Under the pieces are notes generated by a model. It was not told the origin of the DNA, made no database searches, and saw only the letters and a list, made by a program, of their open reading frames with translations. From IMG/VR virus record IMGVR_UViG_3300014962_000018, positions 1-38,962 of that record: a stretch of DNA of 38,962 bases, one strand, 5' to 3'. Shown in pieces: positions 9,441 to 33,267 of the stretch (position 1 is its first letter; each line of letters starts with the position of its first letter). This DNA comes from a virus. Made by a program: the position numbers and the translations under genes.

Positions 9441-11069
9441 ATGGGACGATTTGCAAAAGAAGTCGACGAGTTCGTAGCCGCGTTCAAAGCGGGCAACGAC
9501 ATCGGCTATCGCATGCGCTACTTCCAACTGCAGCAGCGCCAGCAGCAGCTCCGCGAACTGCAGTTCCAGCAACGGTTGCAGCGCGGCACAGGCGGCGGCA
9601 ACGGCATGCCGGCTGACACGCAGGAGCTTATCGAACGAGGGCGCAGTAACCGCTTCGGTCCCGGCAGCGAGAACACGACGCAGCCAGCGACAACCAAGCA
9701 GGCGACCGTCCAGCCGAAGAAGCAAGAAATCCCCGACGCCACGCCGACGGCGCAGCCGGACAAGTCGTCGGACGCCACGCCTGCGGCGACGACCCCGTCG
9801 TCCGGTGGCGGCGGTTCGACCGGCGGCGAGAAGCACGCCAGCATCCTCGACAAGTATCCCGGCAGCTACCAGACGGCGGCGCTGGAGACCGGCACGGCGA
9901 ACGATGCCTCGCCTGTGCGCTCGGCGCTGGGCGGCATGAGTGCGCCGGGTGGCGGGGTTGGTGGCGCGTCCCCGGTTGCGTTCGGATCGAACTCGATGGC
10001 GATGTATCGGGCGCTCACTGACCTTGGCGTCAAGCCGCAAGTCGCCGCTGGCGCTGTTGGCTCGATGATGGGCGAGAGCGGGCGCGGGCTGAACCCTGCG
10101 ACGTATGTAGCCAACGACAATGGTGGTCCGTCCGGCGGCGCGCTGCAGTGGCATAACGAGCGACTGACGGGCCTGTATAATTTTGCCGGCACGAGCGACA
10201 TCTCAAAAATTCCGATCGAGACGCAAGCGAAGTATATGCAGCAAGAGCTGCAGGGGCGTGAGAACGGCACGCTCAAAGCGCTCCTCGCTGCGGATACCGT
10301 TCAGCAAGGCACGGACATTTGGACGCGCAAGTTCGAACGCCCGCAGTATCCAGACAAGGACGTTGCGAAGCGCACGCCAATGGGCGAGGCGTTTTGGAAG
10401 CACGTCGAGAGCGGCAACGTCGCCTCTACTACCCCGAGCAATCGCAATCAGGACGCGGGTAACGCGCGCCAGCAGGTTGCGGCGATCGATACGGGCACAA
10501 GGACCGATGCGTCCCCTACTCCGCGTCCCGCCGCTACGACACCTGCCACAACTACTCCAGCGACTACGACCCCAGTTACCCCGGCGAGTAGCCCTGCTCC
10601 AAAAGCGATTGACACCCCGCTCCCGCCCACTCGCCCGGCTGATCTGGGTAAAGTGAACGCGCCGCTTCCGCCTGCGCGCCCGCCGGAGTCGGAGCTGAAC
10701 CCCGAGTTCCCGAAAACGGCCGGGCAGCCTGCGCCGGAGCCGCCGCGCCGTCCGGAGATGGGTCAACCTATGCCGGCCGAGCCCGCGAAAGAAGCGGTGC
10801 CGGCCGGTGCGCAACCCGGTCAAGATGCGCTCGCACCAGCAGCGCAACAGCCGGCGCAGAGCGATGGTTGGAGCTTCCTCGACGACATCGGGCAAGGCAT
10901 CGACGACTTCTTCAACGACCTGAATGTCTCCGCTGATTGGGACGTTGGGTCAGCCGGCGGCGACGCCGGTGGTGACTTTGGCGGAATTGGCGACGCGATC
11001 GGCGGAATTGGTGACGCGATCGGCGGCGCGCTCGGTGGACTGTTTAATCGTGGCGGCATGGTGAGATAA
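9441..11069 (+). CDS. Internal virion protein with phage tail lysozyme domain
   Basis: A 542-residue protein. The N-terminal 60 residues are Gln-rich helices (YFQLQQRQQQLRELQFQQR). A disordered Thr/Pro/Ala linker follows. Residues about 183-320 match the phage tail lysozyme fold: AMYRALTDLGVKPQVAAGAV, then MMGESG with candidate catalytic Glu212, GGPSGGALQWHNERL, IETQAKYMQQEL and DIWTRKFERP. The domain would cut peptidoglycan during DNA entry. Residues 325-470 are a long Pro/Ala/Thr linker. The end (about 475-542) holds aspartates and GGIGDAIGG repeats. Coupled to the next gene by TAATG overlap at 11069. In T7 the wall-cutting domain sits in gp16; here it is on a separate protein. Confidence 0.82.
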   Translation: MGRFAKEVDEFVAAFKAGNDIGYRMRYFQLQQRQQQLRELQFQQRLQRGTGGGNGMPADTQELIERGRSNRFGPGSENTTQPATTKQATVQPKKQEIPDATPTAQPDKSSDATPAATTPSSGGGGSTGGEKHASILDKYPGSYQTAALETGTANDASPVRSALGGMSAPGGGVGGASPVAFGSNSMAMYRALTDLGVKPQVAAGAVGSMMGESGRGLNPATYVANDNGGPSGGALQWHNERLTGLYNFAGTSDISKIPIETQAKYMQQELQGRENGTLKALLAADTVQQGTDIWTRKFERPQYPDKDVAKRTPMGEAFWKHVESGNVASTTPSNRNQDAGNARQQVAAIDTGTRTDASPTPRPAATTPATTTPATTTPVTPASSPAPKAIDTPLPPTRPADLGKVNAPLPPARPPESELNPEFPKTAGQPAPEPPRRPEMGQPMPAEPAKEAVPAGAQPGQDALAPAAQQPAQSDGWSFLDDIGQGIDDFFNDLNVSADWDVGSAGGDAGGDFGGIGDAIGGIGDAIGGALGGLFNRGGMVR

Positions 11070-20665: not shown

Positions 20666-21019
20666 TTGATCGAGGAGCTAGTCGGGCGCGTGCTCGCCAC
20701 ACGAAATGCGGTGCACTTGGCGCACTGGAGGACGAACAGCTACGCGCAACATCAGGCGCTGGGTTCGTTCTATGAGGACCTTACCGACAAGATCGATAAG
20801 ATCGTCGAGATGTATCAGGGTGCGCTGGACATGATCGACAAAGTATCGATCAAAGAGGTATCACCGAAGGACATCCTCACACACTTAAATACGGAAGCGG
20901 AATGGATCGAAGAGAACTTGGAAGAGCTCTCGGGCAATGTGAAAGCTATCGAGAATGTCTTGCAGGACTTGAGCGGGAGTTACTACACGACGATCTACAA
21001 ACTGACACACTTACAGTAG
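20666..21019 (+). CDS. Dps/ferritin-like small helical protein
   Basis: A 117-residue all-helical protein. It starts at TTG 20666 behind GGAG at 20656-20659, 1 nt after the giant gene. The segment RNAVHLAHWRTNSYAQHQAL (His17, His20, Trp21, His29) followed by FYEDLTDKIDKIVEMYQGA mimics the Dps/bacterioferritin signature, in which a His, Asp and Glu at the dimer face bind iron. Similar phage proteins are filed under DUF5856. It could be a virion or host-protection protein; iron binding is not shown. Confidence 0.6.
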   Translation: MIEELVGRVLATRNAVHLAHWRTNSYAQHQALGSFYEDLTDKIDKIVEMYQGALDMIDKVSIKEVSPKDILTHLNTEAEWIEENLEELSGNVKAIENVLQDLSGSYYTTIYKLTHLQ

Positions 21020-23740: not shown

Positions 23741-23971
23741 ATGATCGACGACGAAGAATATTCCGAACAGGAATTTGCGATCGCCGACTACCCCCTCGAC
23801 TCCGTCGCCGCGCGTTGCGAGAGCGTCGCCCGCCTCATCGTAGTGGCGTCCAAACTACCTGAAGGTCGACTTCTCGACGAGGCGCTGATGATGTTGTCCG
23901 CCGTCCGTCGTTCGTTTGCGACACTGCCGGCCGGAGAGCTGGCGTCGATCTCCGGCGGCAAGGGGAACTAG
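23741..23971 (+). CDS. Hypothetical acidic protein, last late gene
   Basis: A 76-residue protein; the ATG at 23741 has GGGAGG close upstream. The N-terminus is acidic (DDEEYSEQEF); the rest is helical (ESVARLIVVASKLP, ALMMLSAVRRSFATL). No motif recognised. It ends tail to tail with the minus-strand gene, and the two stop codons share the palindrome CTAG at 23968-23971. Confidence 0.65.
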   Translation: MIDDEEYSEQEFAIADYPLDSVAARCESVARLIVVASKLPEGRLLDEALMMLSAVRRSFATLPAGELASISGGKGN

Positions 23972-24549
23972 AACCGATACCACCCAGCCAACGCCGCCAA
24001 CCTGCCCGGTTTTTTCTTCGTAGAATTTACCGATGGCTTGGGTGGCGGTGGAGGCGACGGCGCTACCTGCTTGGGTAACTCTTGCGCCGCACGGACAAGC
24101 TGCTCCTGCAGCCGCTTCTCCCGATACTTCTTCGCGTTATACTCCCGGTTCTTGCGCAGCCGGTTTTCGCGCTGCTCGGGCGTCTCGTTACGCGGGATAC
24201 CCTTCAACCTCGCAGCCTTGGCGGTCCACAGCTCTCTCTGCCGGGCGGCGTATTCCGGGTCGTTCTTCATCCGCTCTTTATGGCGAGCACGGGTCTCCGC
24301 GTAATGTTCTTTGTGCCACTGCCGCTGGTATGCGCGCCGTTCGGCGAGATACACTTCACGATCTTCTGGCGTCATGTGCCGGCGATATTTAACTCTCAGC
24401 CCGGCTTCGACCGCTCGATACTCTGCATCTCGGCGCTTCTCGCGCCGCTTCTCGTTATACCGCTCGCGGATCGCGCGCAGCTTTTCCGGGTTCTGCTCGT
24501 TCCATTTACGCTTCGCTGCTTTTTCATCTTCCTTGTTCTTGTATGCCAT
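23968..24549 (-). CDS. Lys/Arg/Glu-rich hypothetical protein
   Basis: A 193-residue, extremely charged protein. Repeated short units with Tyr, Trp and Arg (KRKWNEQNPEKLRAIRERYNE, RAYQRQWHKEHYAE, ENRLRKNREYNAKKYREK) suggest a long single helix. The tail is Pro-rich (PSPPPPPKPS). Similar charged helices occur in phage DNA-binding or nuclease-associated proteins, without a known activity. It is the last gene of the early minus-strand run, 16 nt after the preceding stop. One dyad copy (24063) falls within it. Confidence 0.75.
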   Translation of the reverse strand: MAYKNKEDEKAAKRKWNEQNPEKLRAIRERYNEKRREKRRDAEYRAVEAGLRVKYRRHMTPEDREVYLAERRAYQRQWHKEHYAETRARHKERMKNDPEYAARQRELWTAKAARLKGIPRNETPEQRENRLRKNREYNAKKYREKRLQEQLVRAAQELPKQVAPSPPPPPKPSVNSTKKKPGRLAALAGWYRF

Positions 24550-24565
24550 GACTTAACCTATATGA

Positions 24566-24826
24566 TTAACCACCGTTATTTGGCTCCGTCACGCCTTCAA
24601 TCGCGGCGCGGGCGCGGACAATAACTTGAATATCAATGCAGGGAACGCCGATGCTGGCGCGCGTTGAATACGCGGCGCTAACAACATCCTTCAACACCTC
24701 CTTCATCCTGTCCCGTTCCGCTGTGACGGCGGCGAGTTTGGCGCGGAGGCGGGCGATTTCATCGCGCAGAACATAACAGTCACTTTCCCAATCGTGAACC
24801 AGTTCGGCGTTTTCGTCGTCGCTCAT
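24566..24826 (-). CDS. Early coiled-coil protein, GVTEP family member
   Basis: An 86-residue protein. The ATG at 24826 overlaps the previous stop (ATGA) and follows AGGAG. A coiled coil (DEIARLRAKLAAVTAERDRM) and an ending ARAAIEGVTEP are shared with the genes at 25255 and 25685. This looks like one family spread by duplication of modules. Function unknown; similar proteins in other phages are variable early proteins. Confidence 0.7.
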   Translation of the reverse strand: MSDDENAELVHDWESDCYVLRDEIARLRAKLAAVTAERDRMKEVLKDVVSAAYSTRASIGVPCIDIQVIVRARAAIEGVTEPNNGG

Positions 24827-25053
24827 ATCCCGCTCCTGATTTCTGAGATAAGCAACTGGAAATGACGATCTTCGCAATACGTTTTAGCCTTATCCAGCGT
24901 CTCAAAACGCTTGTTTACATCAAGTAGGAATGGAGACTGTTTTATTCCCCACTTTGGCGGAAGTTGTTTTGAGTATAGCATACGGCAAACCACAAATTTG
25001 TTGCCGTGGCCTTCCAGAATATGGTCGTTATTTTCTTCAATCCATTTAATCAT
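24823..25053 (-). CDS. Hypothetical small early protein
   Basis: A 76-residue protein from the ATG at 25053, which overlaps the previous stop. An upstream in-frame start at 25095 would run into the preceding gene and is unlikely. It contains MIKWIEENNDHILEGHGNK and a helix RFETLDKAKTYCEDRHFQL. It ends EIRSGI, encoded by the ribosome binding site of the next gene. Function unknown. Confidence 0.65.
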   Translation of the reverse strand: MIKWIEENNDHILEGHGNKFVVCRMLYSKQLPPKWGIKQSPFLLDVNKRFETLDKAKTYCEDRHFQLLISEIRSGI

Positions 25054-25265
25054 TTCCCACTCCTGATTGCTGCGGCGATTTTTCGCAGCGCCCACTTCAA
25101 ATCAAATGGAACATATACGCGAAAGAGAGACTCGCCTTGGATTTGCCCATTAGCGCCAATCGCGCGGACGCGGGCTACGGCCTCACTCATTGAGTCGGCA
25201 TCAATCGTAAAGCCGTATGTTTCACCATTAAAGTTGTATTCGAATAAATATGTTTTATTGCTCAT
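25050..25265 (-). CDS. Hypothetical small early protein ending AAIRSGK
   Basis: A 71-residue protein. Beta strands (KTYLFEYNFNGETYGFTID) precede a helix (SMSEAVARVRAIGANG). The last residues IAAAIRSGK are encoded by the AGGAGCGGGAAATGA cassette that also starts the next gene. The 5' end overlaps the previous gene by 16 nt. Function unknown. Confidence 0.68.
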   Translation of the reverse strand: MSNKTYLFEYNFNGETYGFTIDADSMSEAVARVRAIGANGQIQGESLFRVYVPFDLKWALRKIAAAIRSGK

Positions 25266-25692
25266 TTCCCGCTCCTGATTGCTGCGGCTCCGTCACGCCT
25301 TCAAGCGCGGCGCGGGCGGCTTCCCTTACAATTCTAGGCGTGTGATATGCCGGGTCTTCTGGCGTGTCACAATGTCGGATGAACCCAAGTTCTATGCCGT
25401 TGTGAATGTAACTGTCTGCACGCTTGACTACCTCCCGCATCCTGTCCCGTTCCTTCGTGACGGCGGCGAGTTCGGCGCGGAGGCGTTCAATCTCGCTCTG
25501 ACCATCCCTCGGCGCGCTCTTGATGTCGCGCCATGGTGTTTGTGGAATATGCACAAGGACCGATTTTGGACTGTTCCGACAAAGACGCAAAGCCGCCGGA
25601 ATTGCATCCTCTAGCGTCGCCTGCTTCGTGATCAAAACGTCATCGGCCATTCTTTCGCCGTTGACGTATCGCTGGAAGAAAAATTCAGGCAT
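25255..25692 (-). CDS. Early coiled-coil protein, GVTEP family member
   Basis: A 145-residue protein. A unique N-terminal domain (EFFFQRYVNGERMADDVLITK, ALRLCRNSPKSVLVHIPQTP) is joined to the shared coiled coil (IERLRAELAAVTKERDRM) and ending (AARAALEGVTEP). The last residues SGAGNEQ come from reading the shared ribosome-binding cassette in another frame, so the same DNA ends proteins as IRSGK elsewhere. Function unknown. Confidence 0.7.
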   Translation of the reverse strand: MPEFFFQRYVNGERMADDVLITKQATLEDAIPAALRLCRNSPKSVLVHIPQTPWRDIKSAPRDGQSEIERLRAELAAVTKERDRMREVVKRADSYIHNGIELGFIRHCDTPEDPAYHTPRIVREAARAALEGVTEPQQSGAGNEQ

Positions 25693-26119
25693 TGCTGTCT
25701 CCTGTCACCGGCTCCGTCACGCCTTCAAGCGCGGCGCGGGCGCGGTGAAGGGCCGCATTTACGGCCATGTCCCTGCCAACCTCAAACTTGATATCATGTA
25801 AAAGCAAACCATCGTTATTTATGCGCCTTATCGGATGCTTTAGCGCAGCCACGCAATCTCTCAACGCCTCCCGCATCCTGTCCCGTTCCGCTGTGACGGC
25901 GGCAAGGTCGGCGCGAAGATTGGCGACGGTTTCTCTTTCTTCGCGTAGTTCACTCTCTGCCTCGCGCAATGCTATTAGGCGTTGCTCTGAATGGTGCTTG
26001 TAATTGAACAACTCCTTTTGCAGGTTTTCTCTCTCCGCACGGAGTTGCAGTAGTTCCTGATATTGTTGCGTCCGTTCGTCGATTGATTTTTCAACTAGCG
26101 CGATATAACTGTCACTCAT
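25685..26119 (-). CDS. Early coiled-coil protein, GVTEP family member
   Basis: A 144-residue, almost entirely helical protein (ERTQQYQELLQLRAERENLQ, EAESELREERETVANLRADL). It shares LAAVTAERDRMREAL and the ending RARAALEGVTEP with the genes at 24566 and 25255. It overlaps both neighbours by 4 and 8 nt. Function unknown; possibly a protein-interaction or scaffold-like early factor. Confidence 0.7.
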   Translation of the reverse strand: MSDSYIALVEKSIDERTQQYQELLQLRAERENLQKELFNYKHHSEQRLIALREAESELREERETVANLRADLAAVTAERDRMREALRDCVAALKHPIRRINNDGLLLHDIKFEVGRDMAVNAALHRARAALEGVTEPVTGDSNA

Positions 26120-27132
26120 TTCCCGCTCCTGATTGCTGTGGCAATTGCATAGCTTACATGCGCCGTCATTTCTTTTTTCGTGCTGTTAAGCCATGTTTCT
26201 ATGTCGAACAAAAACGACCCTTCCGCTACCTTCGCACACCGCTCCCTCTCCGCCGCTTCGATATGCGGGCGGATGGCGGCGATGGCAGCGCGGCCTTCTC
26301 CTAATTCCTCCGGCGTTAAATTACTGGGATCGAAACAACCTAAGCGTCCAGTTCGTTCAAATTTGTTCCGCCGTATAGCGACAGCCGCCATCTCCACCAG
26401 CGCCTTGTCATCCACAGGCGCGAGACAGCTTGGCGCGGGCATAATATATCCAGCGCACTCCATTAGCGTCTCGTAGGCAACGCCAAACACTAAAGATAAT
26501 GTGTATAACGCATGAGGCGACGGGGTTGCGATCTTACCGTTTTCTAATTGGCTCAGATATGCGTTTGAGATTTCTTTGCCGGTGGCTTCTTCAACCTCGC
26601 GCAGAGTCATTTGTTTTTCCTGACGAACCTTCTTTAAGAATGGTCCAAGTCTGAGCTTAGTCATAGATTGTTCTGCTTCTACCGCTTTTTTCAGCGCATC
26701 CCTCTCCACCAGCGCCTTGTCATCCACAGGCGCGAGACGGGCGGCGAGGGCGTCGCGTTCTTTCTCTGCGGCGAGACGTTTCCGTCGCTCTAAAACTGCA
26801 ACGCTCCACCAGTCCGTAGGAATAGGAGCGCGGCTTTCGTGGTTTTGATTTGGCAAAAGTTCTTTCAACCCATCCCGATCTGCCAGCACCGTCTCAAGAG
26901 CGTCGGCGGCTTCCGGCCCATCGGGATTTATATTCCATGTCGCTATTTCGGCGTGACCCTGATACATCCCGCTTGTTTTTCGCAACCGCGCAACCAAATC
27001 CGCATAATCCGTGCCCTGAAATTGCGCGGCGTAGGCGGCTGTTAGTGACGCCATAACCTGTGCTTCTAGGCTCACATGCGTTTTGTTATAAACGCGCATA
27101 AATTCTCTATACGCTTTATCGTTCGGTTTCAT
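26116..27132 (-). CDS. Ea22-like early protein with inserted XRE helix-turn-helix domain
   Basis: A 338-residue chimera. Residues 1-143 resemble variable early proteins (DYADLVARLR, EAADALETVLADRD). Residues about 157-222 form an XRE-type HTH: KLRLGPFLKKVRQEKQMTLR, EVEEATGKEISNAYLSQLENG, then a helix pair. The segment LAPVDDKALVE occurs twice, at 133-143 and 237-247, flanking the HTH. Residues 248-338 resume the early-protein type (AAIAAIRPHIEAAERERCAK) and end IRSGK. The HTH would bind DNA as a dimer and could regulate this region. The insertion is in frame (312 bp). Confidence 0.75.
   Translation of the reverse strand: MKPNDKAYREFMRVYNKTHVSLEAQVMASLTAAYAAQFQGTDYADLVARLRKTSGMYQGHAEIATWNINPDGPEAADALETVLADRDGLKELLPNQNHESRAPIPTDWWSVAVLERRKRLAAEKERDALAARLAPVDDKALVERDALKKAVEAEQSMTKLRLGPFLKKVRQEKQMTLREVEEATGKEISNAYLSQLENGKIATPSPHALYTLSLVFGVAYETLMECAGYIMPAPSCLAPVDDKALVEMAAVAIRRNKFERTGRLGCFDPSNLTPEELGEGRAAIAAIRPHIEAAERERCAKVAEGSFLFDIETWLNSTKKEMTAHVSYAIATAIRSGK
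26391..26738. repeat. 36-bp exact direct repeat flanking the XRE domain
   Basis: Copies at 26391-26426 and 26703-26738 are identical and exactly 312 bp (104 codons) apart. They encode LAPVDDKALVE in the minus-strand gene. Recombination between them would delete the HTH domain and leave an intact shorter gene. Confidence 0.9.
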
Positions 27133-27329
27133 GGCTCACCTCCAAACAGCGAAAAAATAAATTCAGCCGCCATCCAAAGCATAACCGGCTTAAAAGATGT
27201 CGTGCTGGCGTAATATCTTTGTTCGTCTTCCGCCTCTCCGATTATGATGACGTTTTTGAGTTTGCCTTTTGCCGCGTCTAAAACCTTATCTGCATCATTG
27301 CAGTCTGGCTGTTTTAGTTCGTGAATCAT
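27129..27329 (-). CDS. Hypothetical small early protein with hydrophobic C-terminus
   Basis: A 66-residue protein. The C-terminal half has a hydrophobic stretch (FKPVMLWMAAEFIFSLF), probably membrane-associated. The final GGEP is encoded by GGAGGTGAGCC, the ribosome binding site of the next gene, and its stop overlaps that gene's ATG. Function unknown. Confidence 0.65.
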   Translation of the reverse strand: MIHELKQPDCNDADKVLDAAKGKLKNVIIIGEAEDEQRYYASTTSFKPVMLWMAAEFIFSLFGGEP

Positions 27330-27354
27330 TTTATCCTCGTTACTTCAACGCAGA

Positions 27355-27435
27355 TCATTCCGTTTCTTTCTGACGTGCTAACGTGTCGTCTTTGGTGTTT
27401 AGGATTTTCATAGTTTTAAGAACCAAAGAGTCCAT
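27355..27435 (-). CDS. Possible 26-residue peptide
   Basis: From the ATG at 27435: MDSLVLKTMKILNTKDDTLA, then RQKETE. It follows the strong GAGGGGTGAG cassette with good spacing, which is the main support. It fills the gap between two other small genes. Too short to judge by sequence alone. Confidence 0.4.
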   Translation of the reverse strand: MDSLVLKTMKILNTKDDTLARQKETE

Positions 27436-27438
27436 CAC

Positions 27439-27702
27439 TCACCCCTCGCCTTGCGTCGCGCAATTATCATCGTCTTTTTTGCCCGATAACATTCTCGCCG
27501 CTTCCTGCAATACGTCGTCTCGCATTTCGCACCACTCTGGCGTGTCGAATGATTTATCGGTTGACCGTTTTTGATGTCCGCAATAATCAGCTACTCTGAA
27601 CGTGCAGAATAACCTCTCGTGCTGGCAGACTACGCTCACCTTGCCGTCAGTAATGACGCCTATCGGGCCAAACGAGCGATTTTTTCTTTTTATTCCGACC
27701 AT
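27439..27702 (-). CDS. Hypothetical early protein with Cys/His residues
   Basis: An 87-residue protein. The pattern VCQHERLFCTFRVADYCGHQK holds three Cys and two His that could bind zinc. It starts at the ATG at 27702 with AAGGAG upstream and overlaps the preceding gene by 13 nt. The ending ATQGEG is encoded by the GAGGGGTGAG cassette of the next gene. Function unknown. Confidence 0.68.
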   Translation of the reverse strand: MVGIKRKNRSFGPIGVITDGKVSVVCQHERLFCTFRVADYCGHQKRSTDKSFDTPEWCEMRDDVLQEAARMLSGKKDDDNCATQGEG

Positions 27703-27854
27703 TGATATAGACTCCTTCTGGGCAATGCTGGCAATGCGCTTTTGTCTATCTTTCCCGGCTTTTCAGGCTTTGCCGGAAATCCCCGCGATTGTATCTTTTG
27801 AGAATCGCCTTTAATTCCCAACGCCGCCTCAATCGCTTCAGTTGTAGGTTTCAT
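27690..27854 (-). CDS. Hypothetical 54-residue early protein
   Basis: Starts at the ATG at 27854, overlapping the preceding stop (ATGA). Sequence begins MKPTTEAIEAALGIKGDSQK and becomes Pro/Lys-rich. It closes what would otherwise be a 150-bp gap, and it overlaps the next start by 13 nt, consistent with the tight tiling here. Function unknown. Confidence 0.6.
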   Translation of the reverse strand: MKPTTEAIEAALGIKGDSQKIQSRGFPAKPEKPGKIDKSALPALPRRSLYQWSE

Positions 27855-28114
27855 TGGCTATCTTCCCTCACGGCATACGGCGAAGGCGTTGGGCTATACC
27901 CATTCTCGGCGAGCCATTTCTTGCTTTCCTCGATCATTTCGTCTGTCGCTTCGCCCCATGACAGCCGCGCTTTATGAACGCCTGCCAGTGCGTTTTTGGG
28001 GTTTGGGTTCGGAATGCCCACAATGTTTTGCAAAAACCCAACAACATTTTCCTCGGTTGGGTTTTTAAGAACGGTAATTTGTCCTGGATGTAGCTCGTGG
28101 TAAACCTTTGTCAT
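27851..28114 (-). CDS. Hypothetical early protein
   Basis: An 87-residue protein from the ATG at 28114; the GTG one codon earlier is less likely. GGAGAGGTGAG lies just upstream, encoded by the end of the previous gene. Features: YHELHPGQITVLKNPTEEN and a helix ATDEMIEESKKWLAENG. No recognised family. Confidence 0.65.
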   Translation of the reverse strand: MTKVYHELHPGQITVLKNPTEENVVGFLQNIVGIPNPNPKNALAGVHKARLSWGEATDEMIEESKKWLAENGYSPTPSPYAVREDSQ

Positions 28115-28305
28115 CACTCACCTCTCCACACGATCCGCTTGATAAAGTTCGGTTGCAAAAGCGGCCAAACGCCAACAAAGAGCGCCGCCGAAGCCAATCG
28201 ACACGGCAAACATTTTGGCGGCGGTGCGCTCGCTAATGTATCTGCGGCAACTTCGGCATGTAAAAAAGCCCCGGTCAGATAAATTGTAATAAGTATATTC
28301 CGCAT
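28114..28305 (-). CDS. Small membrane protein
   Basis: A 63-residue protein from the ATG at 28305, with the GAGGGGTGAG cassette upstream. It has an N-terminal hydrophobic segment (MRNILITIYLTGAFLHA) and a second one (LASAALFVGVWPLL). A CLPC pair lies between them. The stop overlaps the next ATG (TGATG). Possibly a small inner-membrane early protein; function unknown. Confidence 0.6.
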   Translation of the reverse strand: MRNILITIYLTGAFLHAEVAADTLASAPPPKCLPCRLASAALFVGVWPLLQPNFIKRIVWRGE

Positions 28306-28472
28306 CACTCACCCCTCGCCTTGCGTCGCAAACGAACCGAGTTGAGATTAAACTCAACATCTATTCCGATAGCGCGCATATCCAAATCATGTCGGATCAT
28401 GTCGTATTCGTCGCACCATTTACCGGCTATAAATCGAGTCCATATCCGCCGCTTAGACGGTCTCTTTCTCAT
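28305..28472 (-). CDS. Hypothetical 55-residue basic protein
   Basis: Starts at the ATG at 28472 behind GAGGGGTGAG. Begins MRKRPSKRRIWTRFIAGKWC and ends LRRKARGE, where the last codons are again the ribosome binding site of the next gene. Strongly basic N-terminus, so nucleic-acid binding is possible. Function unknown. Confidence 0.55.
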   Translation of the reverse strand: MRKRPSKRRIWTRFIAGKWCDEYDMIRHDLDMRAIGIDVEFNLNSVRLRRKARGE

Positions 28473-28525
28473 CACTCACCCCTCGCTTTGCGCATGGCGT
28501 TGTTCAGCCTAGTCAAAATGCTCTG

Positions 28526-28786
28526 TCATAATGTGTCGTCAGGACCGATAAACGCATTAAGCAATGTTTGAGCTTGTTTGGCTGCCGCATACAGGTCTGG
28601 CGCGGCGGCGATTAGGTGAGAGTTGGCTTGCTGTTGACTGTTGAAATCGTGAACGGGTTTGTCGTCAATCCAGATGGTGCAGATAGTATGATGTTTTGAT
28701 GCTCTTATTAAGATGTCTTCGTAGGGGGCATCGTGTTCGGACTCGTCTGTTGTCCACGGCCCCGGTGTCCATTTTGGTTCGGTCAT
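28526..28786 (-). CDS. Conserved phage early protein (TPGPW...LIAAAPDL type)
   Basis: An 86-residue protein. MTEPKWTPGPWTTDE at the start and QQQANSHLIAAAPDLYAAAK near the end are hallmarks of a very widespread small phage/prophage protein of unknown function. The ATG at 28786 has GGGGAG upstream; the longer form from 28801 is not needed. It lies after a tiny membrane gene that supplies its ribosome binding site. Confidence 0.75.
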   Translation of the reverse strand: MTEPKWTPGPWTTDESEHDAPYEDILIRASKHHTICTIWIDDKPVHDFNSQQQANSHLIAAAPDLYAAAKQAQTLLNAFIGPDDTL

Positions 28787-28790
28787 TTGT

Positions 28791-28898
28791 TCACTCCCCA
28801 ATCCACATTTTGACGACCCACCCGGCTGCGGCAGCGAAGCACAAAATCCCGAATATATGCGAGACGGTGTTGAAGTCTGGCAGTTGATTGTCGGTCAC
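28791..28898 (-). CDS. Tiny membrane protein (35 residues)
   Basis: Starts at GTG 28898, overlapping the previous stop (GTGA), behind GGAG. After VTDNQLPDFNTVSHIFG one hydrophobic helix runs ILCFAAAAGWVVKMWIG. The last codons GGG-GAG form the ribosome binding site of the next gene. Coupling on both sides supports it being real. Function unknown. Confidence 0.55.
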   Translation of the reverse strand: MTDNQLPDFNTVSHIFGILCFAAAAGWVVKMWIGE

Positions 28899-29086
28899 GT
28901 CGCTATCTCCGGGCGTTCCAGGAATTTGACCCGAGGGAGAGACACAGGGACCGTCCTGATAATCTCTCCTGATCGGGATTGACTGACCGCATTAATTTGA
29001 ACAACGACGGTCTCGATCATTAGCGGCTTGTCTTCGAACGGCCGAAATATTTTTCCGCGCGCTTTGCTAATTTGACTGTCTTTCAT
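28895..29086 (-). CDS. Hypothetical early protein
   Basis: A 63-residue protein (KDSQISKARGKIFRPFEDKP, then beta-type IETVVVQINAVSQS). The ATG at 29086 overlaps the previous stop. The ending PEIAT carries the GGAG site used by the next gene. No recognised motif. Confidence 0.65.
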   Translation of the reverse strand: MKDSQISKARGKIFRPFEDKPLMIETVVVQINAVSQSRSGEIIRTVPVSLPRVKFLERPEIAT

Positions 29087-29286
29087 TTTGCACCTTCTAA
29101 TTTCTCGCGAATAATTCTCGATCTTGCCTTAACCGTCGTTATTGATAAGCCGAGCTTCGCAGCAATTTCTTTGCGTGGCATATTATGCGCCTCAAGTTCA
29201 GCCTGGGCCGCTTCGGCGGGAGTAAGAGACCCCGACGACCTGTGATAGCCGCCGTGGATCAATCGACCTTTTGTGTCGTGCCTCAT
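29083..29286 (-). CDS. Small HTH protein (sigma-70 region 4 / LuxR-type)
   Basis: A 67-residue protein. MPRKEIAAKLGLSITTVKAR (35-54) is a clear helix-turn-helix of the sigma region 4 / GerE class, and SLTPAEAAQAELEAHN ahead of it resembles the supporting helices. The ATG at 29286 overlaps the previous stop; an upstream GTG at 29310 is less likely. It is a candidate early transcription factor of the phage. Confidence 0.7.
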   Translation of the reverse strand: MRHDTKGRLIHGGYHRSSGSLTPAEAAQAELEAHNMPRKEIAAKLGLSITTVKARSRIIREKLEGAK

Positions 29287-29570
29287 GGCGTGATTTTCCA
29301 GGCCAGCCACAGGCGAACGCGATTCAACGGTGAATTGAACTTTGCGTCGATAGCCTCGTTAATTTTAGCTTCGGCTTTCTCATGCCGTTCATTGATGGCC
29401 AGTTGTTCAGCGACCCATTTTTTCTTAATTGCCGCAACACGAGCGCGAGCTTTGTCGAGAGCTTGAGGCGATAGGCGACGACCCAGACGGCGTTCTACCA
29501 ATTCCTCGACCATGGCGTAGACCGCCAGCAAGCTGATAAGAGCGGCGGGAAGGATGATGATCTTGAGCAT
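29283..29570 (-). CDS. Membrane-anchored helical protein
   Basis: A 95-residue protein. An N-terminal membrane helix (LKIIILPAALISLLAVYAMV) is followed by charged helices (ALDKARARVAAIKKKWVAEQ, RHEKAEAKINEAIDAKF). A soluble coiled domain facing the cytoplasm is likely. It follows a strong hairpin (29595-29618). Function unknown. Confidence 0.68.
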   Translation of the reverse strand: MLKIIILPAALISLLAVYAMVEELVERRLGRRLSPQALDKARARVAAIKKKWVAEQLAINERHEKAEAKINEAIDAKFNSPLNRVRLWLAWKITP

Positions 29571-29594
29571 GTGGTATATGTCTCCGAGGGATAT

Positions 29595-29618
29595 GCGGCG
29601 GCGTGGTGTCGCCGCCGC
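29595..29618 (-). other. Perfect 9-bp GC hairpin between early genes
   Basis: GCGGCGGCG (29595-29603) and CGCCGCCGC (29610-29618) form a perfect stem with a 6-nt loop. There is no U-run in either direction, so it is not a standard intrinsic terminator. Located between the histone-like gene and the membrane gene on the minus strand; it may protect or partially stop the transcript. Confidence 0.55.
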
Positions 29619-29628
29619 TATTCATCAA

Positions 29629-29871
29629 CTACGCAGCGTCGGAATACTTGTCGGCTTTGGCCTGCGCCGATTCCAGAGCGCGACGGGCGCGCACGACGAT
29701 CTTGTCGGCCTGCACCTGTGCGGCCCCAAATTGCTTGCGAGCCTTCTCCAAAGCCCGCGCCGCAGCTTTGGCCAGCGCCTGCGGCGTCCGCTTCGGGCGC
29801 TTTGTCGCCGTTTTCTTGGACGCAGTCTTCCGCGTTACGGCGGATTTCCGAACAACAGATTTTTTTGCCAT
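29629..29871 (-). CDS. Histone H1-like basic protein
   Basis: An 80-residue protein from the ATG at 29871 (AGGAAA upstream). The first half is Lys/Arg/Thr/Ala (AKKSVVRKSAVTRKTASKKT, KRPKRTPQAL); the second half is Ala-rich helix (AKAAARALEKARKQFGAAQ). This composition matches H1-like nucleoid proteins. It probably binds DNA without sequence preference, and could compact phage or host DNA. It is framed by two strong hairpins, which may set its expression apart from other early genes. A longer form from 29946 would translate the upstream hairpin and is rejected. Confidence 0.72.
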   Translation of the reverse strand: MAKKSVVRKSAVTRKTASKKTATKRPKRTPQALAKAAARALEKARKQFGAAQVQADKIVVRARRALESAQAKADKYSDAA

Positions 29872-29896
29872 TTTAATTTCCTGGTTTTGAGTTGTT

Positions 29897-29934
29897 CCGG
29901 GGCGGGTCAAGGAGATCAAACCAACCCGCCCCGG
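29897..29934 (-). other. Strong 11-bp hairpin upstream of the histone-like gene
   Basis: CCGGGGCGGGT (29897-29907) and ACCCGCCCCGG (29924-29934) form an 11-bp perfect stem with a 16-nt loop. It lies 26 nt before the ATG of the histone-like gene, in the roughly 150-nt gene-free stretch 29872-30025. No U-run follows, so attenuation or RNA processing is more likely than plain termination. Confidence 0.6.
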
Positions 29935-30025
29935 CGCACTTGTCAAAGTCGTTACGCGATGACTCGTGCATCCCTCGTCGCCTCGCGGCTTCGAGTATCC
30001 CGGCGTGTTTCACGTCCCGCCGGAA

Positions 30026-30151
30026 TTACTGAATTGTCAGCGCGCCGGAACTCAACCCTGCGCAGACAATGATGGTTATGATCGCGAAAAGAGCGGCTAC
30101 GGCGCCAATTAACGAGCCGACAATGGCGACCGCCAGATCGAATTTAGACAT
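30026..30151 (-). CDS. Small membrane protein (41 residues)
   Basis: Starts at the ATG at 30151 with GGGAG upstream. SKFDLAVAIVGSLIGAVAAL and FAIITIIVCAGL make one long or two short hydrophobic helices. The longer form from 30616 would cover two other genes and is rejected. Function unknown. Confidence 0.6.
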   Translation of the reverse strand: MSKFDLAVAIVGSLIGAVAALFAIITIIVCAGLSSGALTIQ

Positions 30152-30192
30152 CGTAATCTCCCGGCTTTTCGAGTTGCTTCCGGCATCCATAT

Positions 30193-30450
30193 TCACAGCC
30201 CCATCGCGTGAGGGGCGCCGAAGCAGATCGGCGACTGTAGGGCCAGCTTCCAGCGATAGACGTATTCGTTGCTGGCCGCTTCGGCCGGCGTCCGCCCGCA
30301 GCGAATCCGCCAGGCCAAGCGGGTTACGGTGTCCATGCCCGGCACACGCGGCGGCAATGTCCCGCCGCACATCGTTTTGAGGATTTCGAGAGCCTGGAGG
30401 GCTTCGGCGCGATAAAGACGCTGGGCGTCGCGTATGTCTTGCACGAACAT
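30193..30450 (-). CDS. Hypothetical early protein
   Basis: An 85-residue protein (VQDIRDAQRLYRAEALQALE, CGGTLPPRVPG, TPAEAASNEYVYRWKLALQ). Helical, with scattered Arg. No recognised family and no membrane segment. ATG at 30450, 11 nt after the previous stop. Confidence 0.6.
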   Translation of the reverse strand: MFVQDIRDAQRLYRAEALQALEILKTMCGGTLPPRVPGMDTVTRLAWRIRCGRTPAEAASNEYVYRWKLALQSPICFGAPHAMGL

Positions 30451-30461
30451 GGGCAGAGCTT

Positions 30462-30641
30462 TCAGGGTTGCAGATTGGCGTAGAGGATGGCCGTTTCGAT
30501 CTTGTCGAGCAGGGCCTTCGGTTCAGCGATGTAAGGTTCGGATTCTGACCACCCGCTGGCGGAACGAATCTCGTATTCCTCCTGAATGAAGGCTTGAGCC
30601 GCTTGAAGAGCTTCAATCAGGATCGGATTCGAATTAGCCAT
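30462..30641 (-). CDS. Hypothetical 59-residue early protein
   Basis: From the ATG at 30641, overlapping the previous stop (TGATG). MANSNPILIEALQAAQAFIQ, then an acidic middle and an ending ETAILYANLQP. Pattern resembles small helical phage proteins of unknown role. Its ribosome binding site GGAGG is within the last codons (MEAR) of the preceding gene. Confidence 0.6.
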   Translation of the reverse strand: MANSNPILIEALQAAQAFIQEEYEIRSASGWSESEPYIAEPKALLDKIETAILYANLQP

Positions 30642-30889
30642 CAGCGCGCCTCCATGCCGATAGCGGCGGCGCCGGCTTCGGTCAGGAGCCAGTCGGCGGC
30701 GTCTTTGAAGCGATGCTCGACAAACCAGCCGCGACCGTTTGGTCGATAGCCAGCCAGCGTCACCGGCTGGGGCGCGGCAAGACCAGCGCCGGCGATCCGG
30801 TTGGCCACGATCTTGTGAAACTGGCCCTGCCCGGCGGCGATCGCGCGCAGGGCGTCGGTCATGCCTTTTGTGAGGCGCGGGGCGCTCAT
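30641..30889 (-). CDS. Small winged-helix-like hypothetical protein
   Basis: An 82-residue basic protein. RLTKGMTDALRAIAAG, HKIVANRIAGAGLA, then a beta pair YRPNGRGWFVEHRF and LLTEAGAAAI suggest a winged-helix type layout, as in proteins ending with LTxAG. DNA binding is possible. The ATG overlaps the stop of the ribbon-helix-helix gene (ATGA). Confidence 0.6.
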   Translation of the reverse strand: MSAPRLTKGMTDALRAIAAGQGQFHKIVANRIAGAGLAAPQPVTLAGYRPNGRGWFVEHRFKDAADWLLTEAGAAAIGMEAR

Positions 30890-31047
30890 ATCTCGACGCC
30901 CTCTTTTTTAAGGGCGATCTCGATCAGCGCGCGGACGGCGTGAGACAGCGTAAATTTGCCGGGCTGGGCTTTCCGCCAGCGCTCGACGGCGGCGAACAAC
31001 CGGGCCGGCGCAAGGAAGGATTTCTTGAGAATGACATCGTCGAGCAT
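30886..31047 (-). CDS. Putative ribbon-helix-helix-like regulator, first early gene
   Basis: A 53-residue protein. The ATG at 31047 has GAGG 6 nt upstream and is preferred over the ATG at 31059, which has no site. DVILKKSFLAPARLFAAVER, then LSHAVRALIEIALKKEG gives strand-helix-helix, the layout of CopG/Arc-type repressors. It is the first gene after the divergent promoter with three operator-like dyads, so autoregulation is likely. Inference from size and place. Confidence 0.5.
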   Translation of the reverse strand: MLDDVILKKSFLAPARLFAAVERWRKAQPGKFTLSHAVRALIEIALKKEGVEI

Positions 31048-31072
31048 CGGGCGCCTCATTGGATAATGCCCG

Positions 31073-31101
31073 AGACTTATCGGAAATAATCAGACTGTCA
31101 A
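31073..31101 (-). promoter_or_regulatory. Promoter of the early minus-strand operon
   Basis: A perfect -35 box TTGACA on the minus strand (31101-31096), 16 nt spacer, then a weak -10 TAAGTC (31079-31074). Operator-like dyads at 31079-31095 and 31101-31117 overlap it. Transcription would run into the gene at 31047. Confidence 0.45.
31079..31095. promoter_or_regulatory. Operator-like dyad (degenerate)
   Basis: ATCGGA-AATAA-TCAGAC. Matches the 6-5-6 layout of the perfect site at 31142 with two changes in the right arm. Centre at 31087, 22 bp from the next site (two helical turns). Confidence 0.5.
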
Positions 31102-31117
31102 GCGGAAAAAATCAGAT
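31101..31117. promoter_or_regulatory. Operator-like dyad
   Basis: AGCGGA-AAAAA-TCAGAT, centre 31109. The block CGGAAAAAATCAGA repeats CGGAAATAATCAGA of the neighbouring site with one change. It overlaps the -35 of the minus-strand promoter. CGGAAAA/TTTTCCG (31103-31123) also form an inverted repeat here. Confidence 0.5.
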
Positions 31118-31125
31118 TTTCCGTA

Positions 31126-31154
31126 TTGACCTAATAATAAAATCGGATTATATC
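31126..31154 (+). promoter_or_regulatory. Promoter of the 31201 gene
   Basis: TTGACC (31126-31131), 17-nt spacer, TATATC (31149-31154). The -10 box lies inside the perfect operator dyad 31142-31158. Start of transcription would be near 31161, giving a 40-nt leader with a CCGGG/CCCGG hairpin (31166-31180) and an AGGGAG ribosome binding site at 31187. Confidence 0.5.
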
Positions 31155-31158
31155 CGAT
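31142..31158. promoter_or_regulatory. Perfect operator dyad
   Basis: ATCGGA-TTATA-TCCGAT, perfect 6-bp arms with a 5-bp gap, covering the -10 box of the plus-strand promoter. A repressor bound here would block transcription of the gene at 31201. Confidence 0.65.
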
Positions 31159-31200
31159 CTATGCACCGGGATAGGCCCGGCGCGATAGGGAGTAGACCTT

Positions 31201-31692
31201 ATGAACACCAACGACCTGAACTTTGTCATCACCGTCCCGAGCAGCAAGGGAATTTGGAACCTATATCCGACGCGCGAGATCGCGGTCGAAAATTTGGCCA
31301 CGTTGCAGGCCGAACGACCCGACGAGTTTGCCGGCGCCAGCGTCCTGACCTACGACGACTGGCACTCGCAGATGGAGTCGGAACTGCTGGCTGACGGAAT
31401 AAAGGAGATCGACAACGAGGATTACTGGTATGCCCTCGAAGTCCTGCCGCCGCTCCAGTGGCATAGCGCCGATGGCGTCACGCGGTTCTGCATGTCCGAA
31501 TTTACGCGCGGCAATATCACCAATCAGTATGCCTCGATCTCCCGCGACGGCGTCGAGCGCTACTTTGTGAAGCCGGTTCGGTTTAACGACCGGTCAACTT
31601 ACATCACGACCGACGACATTCGGGAATACGACGAGCTGCTGCGATTGCTCGCCCTCTCCGAAACACTACTCGCGCGATCAGAGGCCCTTTAG
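31201..31692 (+). CDS. Hypothetical protein under dyad-controlled promoter
   Basis: A 163-residue acidic protein. TREIAVENLATLQAERPDEF, EDYWYALEVLPPLQWH, TRFCMSEFTRGNITNQYASI, then a Tyr-containing helix. The LPP-containing centre resembles small alphaproteobacterial/phage proteins of unknown function (DUF1419-like is possible). It is a single-gene unit with its own promoter, operator and terminator, which suggests tight separate control, for example an early switch or host-takeover protein. Confidence 0.65.
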   Translation: MNTNDLNFVITVPSSKGIWNLYPTREIAVENLATLQAERPDEFAGASVLTYDDWHSQMESELLADGIKEIDNEDYWYALEVLPPLQWHSADGVTRFCMSEFTRGNITNQYASISRDGVERYFVKPVRFNDRSTYITTDDIREYDELLRLLALSETLLARSEAL

Positions 31693-31706
31693 CCAACTCC
31701 TGGCGG

Positions 31707-31739
31707 CCCCGCCAGAGACCTGATCCCTGGCGGGGTTTT
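31707..31739 (+). terminator. Intrinsic terminator
   Basis: CCCCGCCAG (31707-31715) and CTGGCGGGG (31727-31735) make a perfect 9-bp stem, followed by TTTT. A competing stem CTGGCGG/CCGCCAG (31700-31715) shares the left arm. Ends the gene at 31201. Confidence 0.8.
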
Positions 31740-31743
31740 GCAT

Positions 31744-32181
31744 TCACGCCGGAATGCCGTTTTTCTCCATCCATTCCCGATCCTTCTGCAACATGATTTC
31801 CCGCCGCTCAGGAGAATGCCCGAGACGCTCGTATCGTTGGGCTAACTCCTCCAGTTTTGCGTCGATCGCGGTCGTTTTCGATGGCTGGGGCCCCGCAGGG
31901 GCAGCCGAAGCCGTCAGGCTACGCCAGCCGAAGCCGTCAGGCCCCGCCGGGGTTGGCGTCGCCGCCGGGGTCGAAGCCGCCGTCAAATAGCCCTTCTGCT
32001 CCAGCGCGAAATCGATCAAGCTGCGAATAATCGCGGCTTTACCCAGCCCAAAGCTCGCAATCTGACTGTCCTCAGCATATCGGGCGATCAGCTCCATCGT
32101 GACCGGACTCAGCGATAGCTGGATTTTGTATGTTTTCACGTCGTCGGGGTTCATTTTAGGGCGACCAGGTGCGATTTTCAT
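31744..32181 (-). CDS. Ribbon-helix-helix DNA-binding protein
   Basis: A 145-residue protein from the ATG at 32181 (AGGA upstream); a longer form to 32385 would translate the operator region and is rejected. VKTYKIQLSLSPVTMELIAR then GLGKAAIIRSLIDFALEQKG gives the strand-helix-helix of Arc/MetJ-type regulators, with a GRPKMNP arm before it. A Pro/Ala linker (TPAATPTPAGPDG) leads to a helical tail (DAKLEELAQRYERLGHSPER). Two operator-like dyads lie in its own upstream region, so it is the best candidate to bind the GGA-N5-TCC sites. Specificity is inference. Confidence 0.7.
   Translation of the reverse strand: MKIAPGRPKMNPDDVKTYKIQLSLSPVTMELIARYAEDSQIASFGLGKAAIIRSLIDFALEQKGYLTAASTPAATPTPAGPDGFGWRSLTASAAPAGPQPSKTTAIDAKLEELAQRYERLGHSPERREIMLQKDREWMEKNGIPA
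31902..31942. repeat. 18-bp direct repeat in the ribbon-helix-helix gene linker
   Basis: CAGCCGAAGCCGTCAGGC occurs at 31902-31919 and 31925-31942, 23 bp apart. The spacing is not a multiple of three, so copy loss would shift the frame. It lies in the low-complexity linker. Confidence 0.75.
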
Positions 32182-32230
32182 GTTGTGTATATCCTCATTT
32201 AATTGATTGCAGTTTTTGGATAGCTCAAAT

Positions 32231-32247
32231 GTCGGATAACGTCCAGT
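32231..32247. promoter_or_regulatory. Operator-like dyad (degenerate)
   Basis: GTCGGA-TAACG-TCCAGT, same GGA-N5-TCC core. Centre is 23 bp from the next site. Confidence 0.5.
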
Positions 32248-32253
32248 TATAAA

Positions 32254-32270
32254 ATTGGAAAATCTCCAAT
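32254..32270. promoter_or_regulatory. Perfect operator dyad before the ribbon-helix-helix gene
   Basis: ATTGGA-AAATC-TCCAAT, perfect; extendable by one pair on each side. It abuts a TATAAT box on the minus strand (32274-32269) that is a plausible -10 for the ribbon-helix-helix gene. Confidence 0.6.
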
Positions 32271-32558
32271 TATAATTTATTATAACCATACAAAAAGGCC
32301 ATAAACTATTACACACATGGGGAATAGTTAGTCTCTCCGGGGAAGAGTTTTTCATGTAAACACGATTGAAAATAAACGGCTTCAAAAACCGTTACGCAAA
32401 AAAACTATGCAACTAACACACATAAATGTATTGTATATATATAATGCAGAAAAAGGCATGTAATTAAATAGAAAAAAATAAGAATCATAAGTAGAAGAGT
32501 TTAATAGTTTTTTTTATTTTTTTTATTTTATTGTATTTACTACAGTTTGTATGTCAAC

Positions 32559-32616
32559 AACTATTCCGCAAAACCTTTCCCAAACCGTTCCGCAGGCCAA
32601 ATCATGCGGAATAGTT
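32559..32616. repeat. 12-bp inverted repeat upstream of the terminase genes
   Basis: AACTATTCCGCA (32559-32570) and TGCGGAATAGTT (32605-32616) are perfect inverted copies, 34 nt apart. A further direct copy of GTTCCGCA lies between them (32587-32594), and GGAATAGTT recurs at 32321. ACCGTTACGCA near 32388 is a related element. Candidate terminase or initiator binding site. Confidence 0.65.
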
Positions 32617-32663
32617 TCGACACCCCACAGCTAGACGAAACCCAGCCCATCAAACACCAGATT

Positions 32664-32692
32664 TTGACAATCCGGCCGCCAATCGCTAAATC
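32664..32692 (+). promoter_or_regulatory. Candidate promoter of the packaging operon
   Basis: Perfect -35 TTGACA (32664-32669), 17-nt spacer, -10 TAAATC (weak). The start would be near 32699, just before the dyad at 32703 and the ATG at 32731. Confidence 0.45.
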
Positions 32693-32702
32693 ACAATTCA
32701 AT

Positions 32703-32719
32703 ATCGGATATTTTCCAAT
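32703..32719. promoter_or_regulatory. Operator-like dyad before the terminase small subunit
   Basis: ATCGGA-TATTT-TCCAAT; one mismatch between the arms, combining the left arm of the 31142 site with the right arm of the 32254 site. It lies just downstream of the candidate promoter, where a bound repressor would block the packaging genes. Confidence 0.55.
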
Positions 32720-32730
32720 CGGCGAATCGG

Positions 32731-33267
32731 ATGACAACCACGAAAAAGCCCAGGGCGTCGAGAGCGACAGGCAGACCACGCGGTCGGCCGTCCGACTACA
32801 CGCCCGAACTTGTCGACCGGATCTGCGCAGAATTGGCCTGCGGTAAATCGATCCGAACAGTCTGCAAAGCCGACGACATGCCGAGCGTCCAGACAATCTT
32901 TTCCTGGCTGCGCTTAAAACCAGAATTTCTTGATCGCTACGCACGCGCGAAAAACGAAGCTGCTGATGCTCTTGTTGAGGAAATGCTCGACATCGCCGAC
33001 GATGGCTCGAATGACTGGATGGAAGTTCACGACAAGGACGGCGCCTGCATCGGCTATAAGGTCAACGGCGAGCACGTTCAGCGTTCCCGCCTGCGCGTCG
33101 ACAGCCGCAAATGGATCGCGAGCAAGCTCAAGCCGAAAAAATACGGCGACAGCGTCGATCTCAATCACGGCGTCCAGCCAAACGATCCGCTCGCCGACAT
33201 GCTACGCGCCATTCAAGGCACAGCCCTAAAACCGATTGCTCAGATCGAGGACGGCGACGACGAATGA
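32731..33267 (+). CDS. terS: Terminase small subunit (Sf6-like)
   Basis: A 178-residue DNA-recognition subunit of the packaging motor. A basic arm (ATGRPRGRPSDYTPELVDRI) and an N-terminal HTH (ELACGKSIRTVCKADDMPSV, QTIFSWLRLKPEF) precede a helical oligomerisation region (ARAKNEAADALVEEMLDIAD). This matches the Sf6 gp1-type family, including the typical IADDGSNDWM and RSRLRVDSRKWIASKLKPKK segments. It recognises the packaging site and recruits the large subunit. Overlap with the next gene is ATGA. The ATG at 32731 has only a weak ribosome binding site. Confidence 0.88.
   Translation: MTTTKKPRASRATGRPRGRPSDYTPELVDRICAELACGKSIRTVCKADDMPSVQTIFSWLRLKPEFLDRYARAKNEAADALVEEMLDIADDGSNDWMEVHDKDGACIGYKVNGEHVQRSRLRVDSRKWIASKLKPKKYGDSVDLNHGVQPNDPLADMLRAIQGTALKPIAQIEDGDDE

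Follow-up and report, generated by a model that had tools for sequence, protein, structure and literature searches.

Six 17-bp dyads as probable repressor operators at three predicted start regions of a phage genome

The window analysed here (the whole stretch of DNA, a linear virus record of 38,962 bases) contains six, possibly seven, 17-bp dyads that are probably the operators through which one phage-encoded, dimeric DNA-binding protein represses three predicted start regions. This reading is supported directly by the identity of the motif, its statistics, its confinement to three regions and its overlap with promoter-like elements. The site-bearing regions are a divergent early promoter, the DNA upstream of the gene at 31744-32181, and the interval between a promoter-like element and the ATG of the terminase small subunit gene (terS), as an earlier note on this DNA had placed them. 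The dyads, to which no strand is assigned, are as follows.

31079 to 31095: dyad 1, ATCGGA-AATAA-TCAGAC, degenerate, two of six arm pairs mismatched
31101 to 31117: dyad 2, AGCGGA-AAAAA-TCAGAT, degenerate, two of six arm pairs mismatched
31142 to 31158: dyad 3, ATCGGA-TTATA-TCCGAT, perfect, none of six arm pairs mismatched
32231 to 32247: dyad 4, GTCGGA-TAACG-TCCAGT, three of six arm pairs mismatched, the weakest of the six
32254 to 32270: dyad 5, ATTGGA-AAATC-TCCAAT, perfect, none of six arm pairs mismatched
32703 to 32719: dyad 6, ATCGGA-TATTT-TCCAAT, one of six arm pairs mismatched
31058 to 31074: possible seventh, weak site, ATTGGATAATGCCCGAG (ATTGGA-TAATG-CCCGAG), rank 8 in the window by position weight matrix (PWM)

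All six copies described in the earlier note were found where it had put them, but they are of unequal quality: 31142, 32254 and 32703 are good and match ATYGGA-N5-TCCRAT exactly, whereas 31079, 31101 and 32231 are degenerate. The layout GGA-N5-TCC or GGA-N5-TCA, which had been taken as common to the set, is kept in every one. Its centre-to-centre distances of 22, 41 and 23 bp also proved correct and are near whole helical turns, with dyads 1 and 2 separated by 22 bp and dyads 4 and 5 by 23 bp. The possible seventh site is located 21 bp from dyad 1 and overlaps an alternative start codon (31057-31059) of the gene at 30886-31047.

Chance resemblance in AT-rich intergenic DNA is a most improbable source of these sites. 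The two non-coding stretches (31048-31200 and 32182-32730) contain three exact consensus matches, whereas dinucleotide shuffling gives an expectation of 0.0005, and none of 2000 shuffles reached three; with up to two mismatches allowed, seven matches were observed against 0.17 expected, a number that no shuffle out of 2000 equalled. Because the consensus was picked after the sites had been seen, a consensus-free score was added, in which spacers of 0 to 12 were each tried and the best triple of near-perfect dyads was scored. None of 1000 shuffles came up to the 19.8 of the real sequence (95% point 13.3, maximum 17.0), and the best-scoring triple was exactly 31142, 32254 and 32703 at spacer 5. 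The one result on the side of chance is a count of dyad families with wide tolerance, which was not unusual relative to shuffles and is uninformative; against it stand the triple score and the exact-match counts.

The dyads were also compared with the rest of the record. The genome-wide search for ATYGGA-N5-TCCRAT that the earlier note had proposed returned the three exact matches already among its sites and no further one elsewhere in the 38,962 bases. In leave-one-out PWM scans of the 39-kb window, the number of non-site positions scoring above the site left out was zero for 31079, 31142, 32254 and 32703, one for 31101 and four for 32231; four of the six sites thus stand above every non-site position. 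The sole high-scoring site elsewhere, at 10200, lies within a late coding gene. Apart from this one comparable coding site, the dyads are restricted to the three intergenic regions and occur essentially nowhere else in 39 kb. Several near-identical dyads of fixed layout are present beyond chance.

The positions of the dyads relative to promoters and genes carry the remainder of the argument. Promoters were taken as consensus matches, as distinct from mapped transcription starts.

31126 to 31154, plus strand: candidate rightward promoter of the gene at 31201-31692, TTGACC-17-TATATC, 9/12
31201 to 31692, plus strand: gene for a DUF1419 protein (PF07215, 7.3e-7), with no other gene separating the rightward promoter from the hairpin at 31707-31735
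32530 to 32557, minus strand: strong candidate promoter toward the gene at 31744-32181, TTGACA-16-TACAAT, 11/12
32664 to 32692, plus strand: candidate terS promoter, TTGACA-17-TAAATC, 9/12
32731 to 33267, plus strand: gene for a terminase small subunit of the Sf6 type (PF20901, 3.6e-42), the first gene of the late operon

To the right of 32731, the Sf6-type terS is accompanied by genes for the terminase large subunit, a DNA methyltransferase and the portal protein, and small genes to the left of 31047 form a leftward cluster that extends to about 23968. Between these blocks, the genes at 31201-31692 (plus strand) and 31744-32181 (minus strand) converge on the GC-rich hairpin at 31707-31735. 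The DUF1419 protein has weak relatives in Citrobacter and Enterobacter plasmids and in Vibrio phages. RNA family and tRNA searches found none. At the divergent promoter, the rightward −10 element TATATC (31149-31154) sits within perfect dyad 3. As read from the sequence, a leftward consensus −35 TTGACA is located at 31100-31095, with dyad 1 filling the spacer downstream of it and dyad 2 adjoining it. In front of terS, the promoter-like element ends at 32692 and is followed by dyad 6 and then by the ATG at 32731. For the gene at 31744-32181, a near promoter-like element (−10 TATAAT at 32284-32279, weak −35) lies just upstream of dyad 5, and the much better 11/12 promoter (32557-32530) is found farther upstream, about 260 bp from dyads 4 and 5; if the latter promoter is used, these two dyads may be part of the leader of the gene. 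The sites therefore overlap or adjoin promoters, as defined by consensus matches.

Since one dyad covers a plausible −10 box and another fills the spacer of a TTGACA element, a repressor-type operator set is the best reading of this arrangement. Phage repressor operators usually have half-sites one helical turn (11 bp) apart and pairs about two turns apart. Counting against the operator reading are the degeneracy of three of the six sites, the weakness of 32231, and the poor −10 that matches the leftward −35. The distance between dyads 4 and 5 and the best promoter of the gene at 31744-32181 also counts against it, as do searches that gave no homologous phage with the same regulator or sites and no library match for either proposed ribbon-helix-helix (RHH) protein. 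We infer that a single dimeric protein binds all of the 17-bp dyads, with cooperative binding to the pairs at 22 and 23 bp. When bound, it would block initiation in three places: the divergent early promoter, which serves the DUF1419 gene to the right and the early cluster to the left; the promoter of the gene at 31744-32181; and the start of the terS/late operon. The earlier note had envisaged one repressor governing early and packaging genes together. Motif statistics and promoter geometry give good support to the part of that proposal in which the three regulatory regions carry predicted sites for one protein. That early and packaging genes are jointly controlled is plausible, as judged from position only.

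Use of the sites by two or more regulators is improbable. On that account, one protein would bind dyads 1 and 2, with their TCA right half, and a second one the canonical dyads 3, 5 and 6, as for CI and Cro or for two RHH paralogues. Dyads 1 and 2 do have in common a 19-nt direct repeat (84%), their TCAGA right half is absent from the other dyads, and several candidate DNA-binding proteins are encoded in the window. However, the left-half GGA and the layout are identical across the dyads, and leave-one-out models built without dyad 1 or dyad 2 still give each of them the highest rank in the window or the one just below it.

The dyads of the AT-rich stretch 32182-32730, and perhaps all of the dyads, could also be replication-origin iterons bound by an initiator comparable to the lambda O protein, which we regard as unlikely. 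This stretch has a GC content of 26-40% and contains a second repeat family. In a paired-dyad scan of viral contigs, many unrelated virus contigs were among the matches listed, several with three to five copies about 21-22 bp apart; the scan is biased by its own pattern and shows recurrence of such arrays, not their frequency. Arrays of the TCGGA-N5-TCCGA type, some degenerate, with this spacing were present in L229, L268, L218, L261, L179, L181 and L195 among the matches listed, and by our reading of the translations several such arrays (L179, L181, L190 and L195) lie inside initiator-like genes. The dyad layout is consequently common to repressor operators and origin iterons. Against an origin, dyads 1-3 are on a divergent promoter 1.1 kb away, a −10 box lies at the centre of dyad 3, the window has no recognised initiator gene, and the second repeat is a better iteron candidate than the dyads. 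What favours the operator reading here is the distribution of the sites over three promoter regions.

The second repeat is an unrelated 12-mer (GCGGAATAGTTT / AACYRTTMCRCA) with six copies at 32303-32617, in both orientations, around the 26-40% GC tract. In 150 shuffles the largest such family had five copies and the usual one two to three. The −35 of the 32557-32530 promoter has one copy directly beside it. These 12-mers are candidate replication iterons or terminase-binding repeats. A packaging role has likewise to be considered for the terS-proximal dyads, which could be cos- or pac-type sequences recognised by the terminase small subunit. Dyads 4-6 flank the non-coding DNA that precedes terS, and in lambda, terminase-binding repeats are located just upstream of terS. 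Identical dyads on an early promoter have no place in a packaging site, however, and this explanation is very unlikely.

If the dyads are operators, three proteins encoded in the window are candidates for binding them.

30886 to 31047, minus strand: 53-aa protein, product of the first gene of the leftward early cluster, RHH-like by pattern only
31744 to 32181, minus strand: 145-aa protein with an N-terminus that is RHH-like by pattern and a confidently modelled helical hairpin at the C-terminus, candidate autoregulated binder
26116 to 27132, minus strand: 338-aa protein of the leftward cluster, Cro/CI-type helix-turn-helix (HTH) at residues ~161-226 (HTH_3, 3.9e-10), rival candidate binder

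The ribbon-helix-helix identity proposed in the earlier note found no support in Pfam, PHROGs, NCBIfam, PDB sequences, PDB folds or an RHH_1 search. For the 53-aa and 145-aa proteins, Pfam, NCBIfam and PDB sequences gave no relevant match and PHROG scores were only marginal, the one profile match of the 53-aa protein being phrog_4738 (repressor) at E=0.19. A search of the record with the RHH_1 profile (PF01402) up to E=10 gave nothing, and the 145-aa protein has no match to any RHH family profile. Low-confidence single-sequence models place helices at residues 13-27 and 34-48 of the 53-aa protein and at 26-38 and 47-62 of the 145-aa protein, in both cases where an RHH fold would have them but without a strand, and searches of PDB folds with these models returned nothing usable. 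A resemblance of the two proteins to RHH proteins, suggested by our reading of their sequence patterns and by the low-confidence two-helix models, is a lead. In contrast, the HTH_3 match of the 338-aa protein exceeds the curated cut-off.

The two proteins that the earlier note had named as binders are not established as such, and the Cro/CI-type HTH protein, which it did not list, is a candidate as well. Tentatively, the most likely binder is the 145-aa protein (31744-32181), which would regulate its own gene through dyads 4 and 5. Among the proteins of the window, the HTH protein at 26116-27132 comes next as a rather unlikely one, and the 53-aa protein is less likely still. Because the record omits part of the genome, the true repressor could lie outside the window, and a repressor encoded in the missing part is a possible, if doubtful, candidate, slightly likelier than the HTH protein.

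Several other features of possible regulators were observed. The HTH domain of the 338-aa protein is flanked by two copies of a 39-nt direct repeat (97%, 312 bp apart) encoding LAPVDDKALVE, as if the HTH had been inserted, with duplication, into a phage protein of another kind; L084, considered as a relative of this protein, has in common with it only a 25-residue C-terminal motif and was rejected. A 75-aa protein at 29083-29310 has an HTH of the LuxR/sigma-70 region 4 type, with weak matches only. The protein at 20666-21019, whose gene adjoins that of a 2500-aa protein, matches the PHROG "starvation-inducible transcriptional regulator" (E=1e-22) and is possibly Dps-like.

Relatives were sought for the regulators and for the sites. 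No true homologue of the 145-aa protein was found in viral and genome contigs, phage and plasmid records, 385 genomes (all of one class, that of the Sphingobium relative) and 37 virus records. The only weak match (0.003), in G004, was discarded since it runs antisense across head-region reading frames. The searched collections also gave no relatives of the 53-aa protein. Terminase relatives are plentiful, but the stretches fetched around them contain neither proposed regulator nor the DUF1419 gene, none of the 37 whole terminase-sharing phage records has an exact site, and upstream of terS no relative inspected has the same layout, a low-GC non-coding block beside a comparable regulator gene. 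Since repressor and operator usually change together and these relatives also have no such regulators, the siteless relatives neither support nor refute the operators. A literature search turned up no RHH repressor acting at a terminase operon.

By the terminase large subunit (TerL), the nearest characterised phages are the Lessieviruses, at ~67-69% DNA identity. The window resembles the Lessievirus podoviruses (Bcep22, BcepIL02 and JC1) in encoding TerL, the portal protein and a very large protein in comparable order. In the early region 23968-32181, unlike in Lessieviruses, no gene for an integrase, a recombinase or replication was recognised. Whereas terS and terL are ~6.5 kb apart in BcepIL02, they adjoin in the window. 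The terminase small subunit is of the Sf6 type here and of the Terminase_2 family in JC1, where the annotated repressor gp7 and regulator gp8 are far from the terminase genes (PMC9144972).

With respect to control, the dyads resemble the operators of the Cro/CI-type HTH repressors of lambda, 434 and P22, which are dyads of 14-17 bp in pairs ~22-24 bp apart that cover the −10 and −35 elements of divergent early promoters. Unlike in those phages, the terminase promoter has sites as well, the divergent region is not bordered by a CI/Cro gene pair, and the HTH protein is an unusual 338-aa fusion. The small RHH-type repressors Arc and Mnt of P22 are similar in their short dyads and autoregulation, the window proteins being RHH-like by pattern only. 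The Arc operator has a similar arm-N5-arm layout. The half-site sequence differs from those of Arc and Mnt, and no searched library places the window proteins in the RHH superfamily. P1 C1 and mycobacteriophage L5 gp71 each act as one repressor at many sites, in early and late genes alike; their sites are asymmetric and outnumber those of the window, which has six symmetric ones within 1.6 kb.

A more specific proposal, speculative at present, is that the product of 31744-32181 is a repressor outside the families in profile libraries that, in a Lessievirus-related phage, directly silences the early operon as well as the terminase/late promoter, so that the usual early-to-late cascade is bypassed. 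Dispersed shared operators are already known (lambda CI, P22 Arc/Mnt, P1 C1 and the L5 stoperators) and what is new is the virus; the understanding of phage repression would be unchanged. If the operator reading is true, early and packaging genes would be coupled through one operator set, and a regulator without detectable relatives would have a tractable binding motif.
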